Source: Fictibacillus enclensis (GTDB lineage: Bacteria; Bacillota; Bacilli; Bacillales; Fictibacillaceae). Taken from it: 64,000 bases of DNA. This document shows, in pieces, positions 24,836 through 27,477 of this stretch (the stretch's first letter is position 1; each line of letters begins with the position of its first letter). Location: assembly GCF_001457035.1 (NCBI RefSeq), contig NZ_KQ758617.1, forward strand, positions 62,001 through 126,000, written 5' to 3'. The notes under the pieces were generated by a model that saw only the letters and a program-made list of their open reading frames with translations, had not been told where the DNA came from and made no database searches. The translations under genes were made by a program, and so were the position numbers.

Positions 24836-25795
24836 ATGAAAAAAGGTTTGGCCCATTATAAAGTGGGAGAGATGATAGATTCCTATCTGATGATTAAATC
24901 TTCCTCGAAATCAACTGCCAGTAACGGAAAGCCATTTTTAAACTTAACGCTTCAGGACCAGACGGGAGATATTGAAGCAAAATTATGGGACTGCTCTCCC
25001 GAAGACGAGCAGCAGTATGTTCCTCAGGCACTGATCAAGATCATAGGGGAGATGAGCAGCTACAGAGGCAAGCTTCAGCTGAAACTAAAGCACATCCGTC
25101 CCGCTAATGATATGGACGGCATAAAAATCGGAGACTTTGTGGAAACGGCTCCGCTTTCAGAAGATGTGATGATGGAAAAAATCACGCAATACATCTTTGA
25201 TATGCAAAATCCCAATATCCAAAGGATTACGAGGCATCTTCTGAAAAAGTATCAGGAAGACTTTCTAAAGTATCCTGCAGCCGTGAAAAATCATCATGAG
25301 TTTGTTTCGGGCCTCGCCTATCATGTCGTCTCCATGCTTGATTTGGCAAGAGGGATTGCAAGCCTCTATCCATCATTGAACACCGATTTGCTGTACTCTG
25401 GCATTATTCTGCATGACCTTGGAAAAGTCATCGAGCTTTCCGGGCCTGTGGCGGCAAATTATACACTCGAAGGCAAGCTTCTTGGACATATCTCCATTAT
25501 GGTCAACGAAATTGGGATTGTCGCCAAAGAGCTCGATATTGAAGGAGAAGAAGTGACGGTCCTTCAGCACCTGGTGCTTAGCCATCACAGCAAGCCGGAG
25601 TGGGGCAGCCCCAAGGCCCCAATGATCCGGGAAGCAGAAATCCTTCATATGATCGATAACTTTGATGCTAAAATCAACATGATGGACCGTGCACTGGGCA
25701 AAGTGGAACCAGGGGAATTCACGGAAAAGATTTTTCCTCTGGAGAACAGAAGCCTCTACAAACCGCTTTTTGAACAGGAATTGGTAAAAAAGTAA
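24836..25795 (+). CDS. yhaM: 3'-5' exoribonuclease YhaM
   Basis: The 319-residue RNase has an N-terminal OB-fold nucleic-acid domain ([18 protein letters not shown], about 25-110) and an HD hydrolase domain with AYHVVSM, the HD pair in [13 protein letters not shown] near residue 195, and LVLSHHS. YhaM trims short RNAs and single-stranded 3' ends in Firmicutes. The ATG follows GAGGTGCGC. In B. subtilis yhaM directly follows yhaN; here cssRS lies between them. Confidence 0.92.
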
Positions 25796-25825
25796 TTGTC
25801 TTAAAGCGGGGGAGTATGGTAAATT
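25796..25825 (+). promoter_or_regulatory. Promoter of the MFS leader transcript
   Basis: TTGTCT at 25796-25801 and TAAATT at 25820-25825 have an 18-bp spacer, and TGG directly before the -10 gives an extended -10. Transcription would begin near 25832. Confidence 0.5.
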
Positions 25826-25859
25826 GTAAGAGAGATTAATGAGATGGAGGCTATGACAG

Positions 25860-25898
25860 ATGAAACCCATTGTTCAAGTAAAGGTGTCTGCTAAATAA
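25860..25898 (+). CDS. Candidate leader peptide of the MFS exporter, 12 aa
   Basis: MKPIVQVKVSAK starts at an ATG nine bases after GGAGG (25844-25848). The stop codon lies inside the 5' arm of a long hairpin (25895-25911), so ribosome position on this ORF would decide whether the hairpin forms. This is the layout of ribosome-stalling leaders in antibiotic-resistance genes. The peptide itself matches no leader I know. Confidence 0.55.
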   Translation: MKPIVQVKVSAK

Positions 25899-25986
25899 CT
25901 GAGTAAATCAACCATGTACCATGATGGCCAAAAAGAACATCTGTTTCTTTGCGTTTTTCATGTACAGTATTGATTTATTCAGTTAT
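25895..25986 (+). promoter_or_regulatory. Long leader hairpin upstream of the MFS gene
   Basis: Arms 25895-25911 and 25970-25986 pair over 17 positions with a single G-U, and TGTAC (25915-25919) with GTACA (25962-25966) extends the stem inward. The 5' arm contains the leader ORF's stop codon. Confidence 0.65.
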
Positions 25987-26046
25987 GACCCTTTCTCTTG
26001 AGTGTTGGTTTATCTGTCAGCTCACGGGCCTTCTAAAACGTACGGT

Positions 26047-26090
26047 GAAGCCTGTAGTTGACGTGGAATTGCGCAGCTGCAGGCTTTTTT
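26047..26090 (+). terminator. Attenuator terminator before the MFS gene
   Basis: A 13-bp stem (26048-26060 with 26074-26086, two G-U pairs) ends in a run of Ts, 71 bases before the MFS start. GGCCTTC at 26027-26033 can pair with the 5' arm (bulged C) as an antiterminator. Confidence 0.75.
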
Positions 26091-26160
26091 ATGCTTTCCT
26101 GCCCTTCCCTCAAGAGACCGGGAGAATTTGTAATGGATTTTAAACGATGAAAAGAGTGTG

Positions 26161-27477
26161 ATGGGAATGAAATGGAAAGATTGGGACAGAAACATTAAGG
26201 TCCGCCTGCTTGGCGAGTTTGTTATTAATTTATTATTTTGGATGTTTTTCCCGTACATGGCGATTTATTTTTCGGATCAACTTGGAAAAGAACAGGCAGG
26301 GATGCTTTTGGTGGCTTCCCAGCTTGTCGGCGTTGTTACCAATCTGGTTGGCGGCTATTGTGCGGATACGTTTGGCAGAAAAAGAATGATGGTAATTGCC
26401 GGTGCGGGCCAAGCGGTGTCCTTTGCCGTTTTTGCACTTGCCAATTCTCCATGGCTGGATTCACCGGTATTAACCTTTTTGGCGTTTACCGCTTTAGGAT
26501 TATTCGGTTCATTGTACTGGCCTGCCAGCCATGCGATGATTGCAGATGTTGTACCTGAAAAGAACCGCAGTGAAGTATTTGCTGTTTTTTATACAAGTAT
26601 CAACATATCAGTGGTTTTTGGCCCTGCGCTGGGCAGTATTTTCTTCTTTGATTACCGGTTTGAGCTGCTGCTGGCCTGTACGATTGTCGGTATTATTCTG
26701 ACATTTGTACTGCAAAAGTATATCAGGGAAACGGTGCCGGAGAAAAAGCCGATTGCAGAGGACCAGGCAGGAAGCCCGAAAAAGTGGAACCAGGTTGTCC
26801 TCAATCAGCTTAAGGACTACCGTGTCATTGCAAAGGATAAGCTGTTTCTGCTGTTTATTCTTGCAGGTATCCTAGTGGCACAGACGTTTATGCAGCTCGA
26901 TTTATTGATTGCTGTTTATACGACCGAAAAGGTGCCTGTCCAAACGCTTCTGCATCTTGGGAATTGGTCATTTTCCCTTACCGGTGAAAAGGCATTTGGG
27001 TACATTGTTTCGACAAACGGGCTGTTGGTCGCTTTGTTCACCGTATTTATGTCAAAGTGGATGAACAAATATAAAGAGGGGAATGTGTTTGTAATTTCTT
27101 CTCTTTTATATGGAGTGGCGATGCTTTTATACGGGAATACAACGATTCTGTGGTTTCTGTTATTGGCTATTGCGATCTTTACCGCTGCGGAGCTCATGGT
27201 GGTTGGGATTCAGGAAAGCTTTATCTCCAAGCTTGCTCCGGAGCATATGCGCGGTCAATACTTCGCCGCAGCAGGACTTCGTTATTCAATCGGCCGCAGC
27301 CTTGCGCCATTGGCGATTCCGCTTACGCTGTGGATTGGTTTCCGATGGACGTTCTTTCTTCTGTTTGTGTTAACGGTAATCAGCGCCTTTATGTACCACG
27401 TGATGTTTCGTCTCCATGATCAAAAACGGGCGGCGGAAAACAAACAGGAGGCAGTGGCTCCGCAATCGGCCGGTTAA
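26161..27477 (+). CDS. MFS family exporter, probably multidrug
   Basis: This 438-residue transporter has about twelve TM helices, the MFS loop motif GGYCADTFGRKRMM between TM2 and TM3, and a charged central loop (EKKPIAEDQAGSPKK) between the two six-helix halves. The start region offers GTG 26158, ATG 26161 and ATG 26167; I chose 26161. Its leader with peptide, hairpin and terminator points to induction by an inhibitor of translation, hence drug efflux. The substrate is unknown. Confidence 0.83.
   Translation: MGMKWKDWDRNIKVRLLGEFVINLLFWMFFPYMAIYFSDQLGKEQAGMLLVASQLVGVVTNLVGGYCADTFGRKRMMVIAGAGQAVSFAVFALANSPWLDSPVLTFLAFTALGLFGSLYWPASHAMIADVVPEKNRSEVFAVFYTSINISVVFGPALGSIFFFDYRFELLLACTIVGIILTFVLQKYIRETVPEKKPIAEDQAGSPKKWNQVVLNQLKDYRVIAKDKLFLLFILAGILVAQTFMQLDLLIAVYTTEKVPVQTLLHLGNWSFSLTGEKAFGYIVSTNGLLVALFTVFMSKWMNKYKEGNVFVISSLLYGVAMLLYGNTTILWFLLLAIAIFTAAELMVVGIQESFISKLAPEHMRGQYFAAAGLRYSIGRSLAPLAIPLTLWIGFRWTFFLLFVLTVISAFMYHVMFRLHDQKRAAENKQEAVAPQSAG

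Follow-up and report, generated by a model that had tools for sequence, protein, structure and literature searches.

Short leader peptides are a recurring device of antibiotic resistance genes. In erm and cat leaders, the RNA structure switches when a drug arrests the ribosome on a short peptide, and most of these leaders control how the downstream gene is translated, not transcription termination. The efflux protein encoded by mefA is of the MFS type. Ribosome-mediated transcription attenuation of this streptococcal macrolide efflux gene is reported, with a leader peptide, MefAL (MTASMRLR), that carries the macrolide-arrest motif R/K-x-R/K (PMC10314930). The tlrB (yxjB) leader of Bacillus subtilis encodes MIIQFIRYR and controls an rRNA methylase; as reported, tylosin causes a stall at the C-terminal RYR, the terminator is blocked directly by the ribosome that has stalled, and NusG-dependent pausing occurs between the peptide and the gene (PMC6851288). 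In the vmlR leader of B. subtilis, which controls an ABC-F protein, a predicted three-codon uORF lies inside an anti-antiterminator hairpin that is followed by an antiterminator and an intrinsic terminator, and stalling on the uORF frees the antiterminator. The same account includes a TTNTTT NusG pause motif, a response to arrest at initiation, and a further hairpin hiding the Shine-Dalgarno sequence (SD) of the gene (PMC9226507).

Here we describe a leader upstream of an MFS exporter gene in Fictibacillus that is probably a ribosome-controlled transcription attenuator built like that of vmlR. The leader family and its peptide are new, while the attenuator layout is already known from vmlR. 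In a full-text literature search, judged from titles and abstract openings and with most subscription journals and preprints outside its scope, no published description of the leader or its peptide was recognised.

The exporter locus and the parts of its leader

Sequence and profile matches in the window, that is, the whole stretch of 64,000 nucleotides of Fictibacillus enclensis DNA that was analysed, place the exporter gene between yhaM (24836-25795, NCBIfam equivalog) on one side and yhaL/prsA on the other. The gene (26167-27477, forward strand) is classed from its sequence as MFS_1 (Pfam, 4.3e-50) and LmrP-like, with drug protection as its candidate role. LmrP, a multidrug transporter, is its closest relative of solved structure (E 1.2e-23, residues 5-414). 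The exporter protein is 97% identical to its counterparts in F. fluitans and F. solisalsi. Three in-frame starts fall within 26158-26169 (GTG 26158, ATG 26161 and ATG 26167), and translation probably begins at ATG 26167, 76 nt past the T run of the terminator, because the exporters of relatives begin there. The same genome has a second MFS gene (G000:C1:480666-481880, locus L121), which is 40% identical to the exporter and has a terminator-like hairpin about 244 nt upstream of it.

All parts named in a preliminary description of this DNA are present in the window, and a further element absent from that description was identified, namely an anti-antiterminator made by the SD and coding region of the leader ORF itself. 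The sigma-A-like promoter (25796-25825, forward strand), as read from the sequence, consists of TTGTCT at 25796-25801, an 18-nt spacer and the extended -10 element TGGTAAATT at 25817-25825. It matches eight of the 12 consensus bases, and TGnTAnnnT recurs 40-54 nt upstream of the leader ATG in 29 of the 34 leaders introduced below, though the site in the window falls under the promoter-scan threshold. The leader ORF MKPIVQVKVSAK (25860-25898, forward strand) has 12 codons and a TAA stop at 25896-25898. Its SD, GGAGG at 25846-25850 (forward strand), lies 9 nt from ATG 25860 and is invariant in all 24 Fictibacillus leaders, in agreement with the good ribosome site reported earlier.

The 17-bp hairpin previously noted over the stop codon (25895-25911 with 25970-25986, forward strand; the 5′ arm spans the stop) is present, but as the inner portion of a longer hairpin, in whose outer portion the SD and ORF (25846-25888) pair with 25987-26033. 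The putative anti-antiterminator thus extends over 25846-26033 (forward strand), with SD, start and ORF paired with 25970-26033, as indicated by the MFE fold, by shuffles and by covariation. When the ORF is masked, an antiterminator of 17 pairs is predicted at 26015-26063 (forward strand), in which 26015-26022, 26024-26029 and 26031-26033 pair with 26047-26063. The antiterminator shows covariation and is larger than in the preliminary description, where the candidate had been given as only 26027-26033 with 26047-26052. The intrinsic terminator (26047-26091, forward strand), assigned from sequence and fold, pairs 26047-26064 with 26071-26087, as 26047-26060 with 26074-26087 plus three extra pairs (26062-26064 with 26071-26073), and ends in T6 at 26085-26090. 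A simple terminator scan did not report this terminator; since neither scanner reported its element, promoter and terminator rest on reading and conservation.

A TTNTTT motif at 25945-25950 (forward strand) is a candidate NusG-dependent RNA polymerase pause site. Of the 34 leaders, 31 have this motif downstream of the stop codon and ahead of the terminator, where mononucleotide shuffling would give 13.6; the enrichment is suggestive only, because the family copies are related. The leader as a whole folds at -111 kcal/mol, compared with -84.7 (sd 5.8) for shuffled sequences (z -4.5; none of 100 shuffles as good).

Distribution of the leader among relatives

In the window's family, 27 of the 34 genomes searched had an exporter match at E 1e-60. 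Of these matches 25 were orthologous, and the leader with its ORF was present upstream of all 25 (10 and 15, from two sets); upstream of the two others (30-31% identical) the leader was not found. The exporter search kept the best 80 of 205 loci, 23 of which carry the leader peptide. Across the order, 144 genomes had an exporter match; another 40 upstream regions fetched from these gave six with the peptide, four of them repeating loci among the best 80. Outside the family, the leader was found at 10 loci. The non-redundant set comprised 34 leaders with 24 distinct peptides, 24 leaders belonging to the window's family and 10 lying outside it. They were selected by Val5, one of six residues at position 6 and an SD-like match, with L148 as a manual addition, and do not include L088 and L157, which were found later by structure. 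L045 and L052 passed the peptide filter and were dropped as chance matches prior to all counts.

Fifteen Fictibacillus exporters of the best 80 loci adjoin yhaM. At eight of the outside loci (two each in Scopulibacillus and Pullulanibacillus, and one each in Caenibacillus, Tuberibacillus, Salirhabdus and Terrilactibacillus) no yhaM, yhaL or prsA was found in the fetched DNA, and leader and exporter therefore stay linked at different loci. On a tree of 85 exporters (the best 80 of 205, that of the window and four distant ones), the leader label changes 4 times versus 21.3 times in shuffles; the starred branches require at least three changes, which implies several gains or losses of the leader. 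Plasmid records gave four distant exporters, of which the one from Listeria leaves no room for the leader, as it lies only 103 nt from the upstream gene.

With a wider SD-ATG gap allowed, a leader pattern run against 397 genomes from the order matched once in each of 16, and 13 of these matches lie directly before exporters. The remaining three (G176, G244 and G350) do not precede an exporter, and those in G244 and G350 belong to ORFs of 65 and 28 codons. A reversed control pattern gave six matches; the three are thus within chance, and no second gene under this leader was seen with a pattern that reads CAR at codon 6 and that several known leaders escape. A narrower-gap pattern run on 398 Bacilli genomes was discarded: its three matches lay at the beginning of ORFs with 300, 243 and 243 codons, and the window itself escaped the too short gap.

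Of 95 exporter relatives that lack the leader, 81 also have a terminator-like hairpin (-9 kcal/mol or better) upstream. Locus L028 (Salirhabdus sp. Marseille-P4669), sister of the leader-bearing L033, seems to retain a terminator-like stretch (AGTCTGTAGCC...), and no leader ORF with an ATG was recognised on inspection of its upstream region. At ten Sporolactobacillus-like loci (L039, L041, L042, L053, L091, L134, L137, L144, L146 and L153) the peptide is absent and strong terminator-like hairpins lie about 29-56 nt before the exporter; some of these loci have longer small ORFs, and they perhaps represent replaced attenuators. At eight loci of Pseudalkalibacillus and kin (L037, L040, L043, L047, L048, L050, L051 and L054) the exporter stands beside yhaM and the leader was not found; in seven of the eight, 25-52 nt separate a terminator-like hairpin from the exporter.

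RNA structures, ribosome position and the leader peptide

Over the 34 leaders, a median of 37 computed pairs joins the SD/ORF region to a 3′ arm that precedes the terminator, and the pair types change along the ORF. In 29 of the 34, at most 5% of 100 shuffles reach as many pairs (L025, L027, L030, L127 and L148 fail). In every leader, the best of the hairpins followed by a T run is located 167-245 nt downstream of the ATG (-14.4 to -29.2 kcal/mol), and termination is predicted there, in keeping with the terminator proposed previously for the window. Antiterminator and anti-antiterminator overlap, and are thus mutually exclusive, in 31 leaders (not in L029, L031 and L148). Only 16 of the 34 have more antiterminator pairing than 95% of their shuffles.

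Covariation was computed on alignments of the 24 family leaders (A1) and the 10 outside leaders (A2). When pairs were counted on structures voted from the individual folds, which leans towards pairing, 90.5% of the cells of the off-state structure were paired in A1 (37-49% once the partners were slid) and 78.0% in A2; the antiterminator gave 87.0% and 75.7%. Against shuffles that ignore relatedness, and for structures derived from the same sequences, both-side changes in the off-state structure numbered 97 versus 41.7 in A1 (0/500) and 30 versus 14.6 in A2 (0/500), and in the antiterminator 18 versus 10.1 (0/500) and 7 versus 3.1 (5/500). In A1, the count of pairs with a both-side change was not above shuffles (62/500 as high for the off-state, 225/500 for the antiterminator), and further pair types were no commoner than in shuffles. 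The conserved peptide frame and covarying stems that the attenuator reading of the preliminary description called for were thus found in relatives, for the ORF, the terminator, the long hairpin and the antiterminator. RNAalifold on raw MAFFT alignments was set aside, since differing loop lengths left the off-state structure only partial and the antiterminator almost empty. In A2 (columns 24-34 and 278-289), the terminator 5′ arm has CAUGG or CGUGG resembling the start-codon region of the leader, and the two would therefore compete for one CCAUG segment.

The effect of ribosome position was modelled by equilibrium folding, without kinetics. Bases from -15 to +15 of the P site, taken as covered by the ribosome, were barred from pairing, and the readout was the share of the terminator 5′ arm engaged with upstream sequence at the last point before the terminator can close. 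Mean antiterminator occupancy over the 34 leaders was 0.37 with no ribosome, and 0.77, 0.76, 0.76, 0.74, 0.73, 0.71, 0.68, 0.60, 0.63, 0.65, 0.61, 0.40 and 0.38 with the ribosome at codons 1 to 13. Occupancy exceeded 0.5 in 12 leaders without a ribosome, and in 34, 34, 34, 33, 33, 31, 29, 25, 25, 28, 27, 13 and 12 leaders at the same codons. Judged from the mean occupancies by codon, a ribosome held early or midway in the ORF would on average switch the leader on, and one near the stop would not. As a group, the 24 family leaders show this contrast strongly (0.30 with none, 0.67-0.78 at codons 1-7, 0.33 and 0.31 at codons 12-13); the 10 outside leaders (0.52, 0.69-0.74, 0.58 and 0.56) and the window's own leader (0.71, 0.83-0.92, 0.91 and 0.77) show it weakly. 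Shuffling the SD/ORF region raised the mean without ribosome to 0.74, above the real value in all 34 leaders, and in 29 of them at least 95% of 25 such shuffles exceeded the real occupancy.

The ORF has 12-14 codons in all 34 leaders, with Val5 in 33 and a polar residue 6 in 33, counts that outside the family are partly circular because the filter selected on residues 5 and 6. A search without the peptide filter, still requiring an SD-like match, covered 86 of the 105 outside regions (19 repeats or near repeats omitted). It returned 18 SD-ATG ORFs of 9-18 codons located 100-280 nt before a terminator-like hairpin. Fifteen of these, at 12 loci, have at least 22 pairs between start region and 3′ arm, and the other three 0-4. 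The 12 loci are the 10 known outside leaders, L088 and L157; in L033, L034 and L148, which have a second in-frame ATG, the start was chosen to match the 12-14-codon leaders. Residue 9 is Val or Ala in all 12, residue 6 is Q/H/N/D in 11 and Val5 occurs in nine, so that the ORF position and residue 9 recur outside the family; these leaders share descent, and the peptide counts are not independent. In L088 (Sporolactobacillus sp. THM7-4; MITSKMMRVLKKAK) and L157 (MVTSLQHRATESF), residue 5 is Lys and Leu, respectively. The leader probably persists in both with an altered peptide, because the ORFs are in the same place and the long hairpin (31 and 33 pairs) is of the same kind.

Among 16 divergent leaders, codon 9 has G at the first base in 16, T or C at the second (13 and 3) and G, A or T at the third (11, 4 and 1), whereas codon 8 has G at the third base in 15 and mixed first two bases; codons 10-12 vary freely. 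We read this as an amino-acid constraint, clearest at residue 9, over an RNA constraint. R/K-x-R/K occurs in 10 of the 34 peptides and not in that of the window, which rules out this macrolide-arrest motif as the common signal.

A leader of this kind might sense stalled or slow initiation instead of a nascent peptide, the peptide being conserved only as half of an RNA helix. For vmlR, induction by arrest during initiation is reported (PMC9226507). In our model, a P site on any of codons 1-3 gives the strongest switching and takes every leader above 0.5, the pattern at codon 8 is of the RNA type, and L088 and L157, which were found by structure alone and differ at residue 5, make initiation sensing slightly more probable. 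The steady ORF length argues against it, however, as does Val or Ala at codon 9 in all the unfiltered outside leaders, with the first two bases mostly kept and the third varying, and we consider it rather unlikely. A ligand- or protein-binding riboswitch with an untranslated small ORF could account for the extensive conserved RNA structure, but hardly for a conserved SD, ATG and frame and a kept residue 9; in Rfam 15, the window gave no match at the gathering score and 25780-26200 none even at E up to 1, and a riboswitch is very unlikely. We regard as highly improbable an amino-acid-starvation attenuator, for valine for example, of an amino-acid exporter: the architecture alone would fit and codons 5 and 9 often encode valine, but each peptide has 1-4 Val codons, inspection by eye of the 24 distinct peptides showed no run of codons for one amino acid, starvation should not induce an exporter, and the nearest solved relative is LmrP. 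An ordinary yhaM terminator with a chance ORF, already disfavoured, would agree with the hairpins upstream of leaderless relatives but has next to no likelihood, since conservation and covariation of the ORF and of the alternative stems extend to the eight loci without yhaM nearby, and a promoter-like element precedes most leader ORFs.

Proposed mechanism and comparison with known systems

The attenuator reading of the preliminary description is supported, and the inducer we infer. RNA polymerase would start just past yhaM and transcribe the SD and the 12-codon ORF. With no stalled ribosome, SD, start and ORF would pair with 25970-26033 as the anti-antiterminator, which would bar 26015-26033 from the terminator 5′ arm; the terminator would then form and transcription end near 26090. 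A ribosome stalled within the ORF (the likeliest cause is a ribosome-targeting antibiotic together with the nascent peptide) would prevent the anti-antiterminator, and the freed antiterminator (26015-26033 with 26047-26063) would capture the terminator 5′ arm and allow the exporter to be transcribed. The exporter would thus most likely be made only in the presence of a ribosome-blocking drug.

Tentatively, and with somewhat less than even confidence, we propose a new peptide of drug-dependent arrest, MxxxV(Q/H/N/D)xx(V/A), conserved in Fictibacillus, Sporolactobacillaceae kin and Salirhabdus, three lineages of Bacillales; its arrest context and drug class would match no known leader peptide, and its own coding RNA would be the anti-antiterminator. 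If the attenuator reading is right, these environmental bacteria would have a chromosomal, phylogenetically deep sensor that couples translation inhibition to an exporter. The conserved peptide would then predict a specific drug-ribosome arrest and could reveal natural antibiotics met by these bacteria, and the leader would be a further case, after vmlR, of a uORF inside its own anti-antiterminator.

Unlike most erm and cat leaders, the leader is proposed to act on transcription termination, and the peptide sequences differ. ErmAL contains IAVVE, which the VVE of the Pullulanibacillus peptide MAIIVQIVVEQH may resemble. Among the other systems, mefA offers a precedent for an efflux gene under ribosome-mediated attenuation; unlike in MefAL, the R/K-x-R/K motif is confined to a minority of the peptides here, and the peptide sequences look unrelated. 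With tlrB the leader shares a short leader peptide, a terminator and a candidate NusG pause site between peptide and gene, but it precedes an MFS exporter rather than an rRNA methylase, and the RYR stall and the terminator blocked by the ribosome itself are features of tlrB. The likeness to the portrayed vmlR leader covers the uORF within the anti-antiterminator, the antiterminator, the terminator and TTNTTT, which at this locus are predicted from sequence and modelling, whereas the longer ORF with its conserved residue 9 and frequent Val5, and its position before an MFS exporter, set the present leader apart from vmlR.
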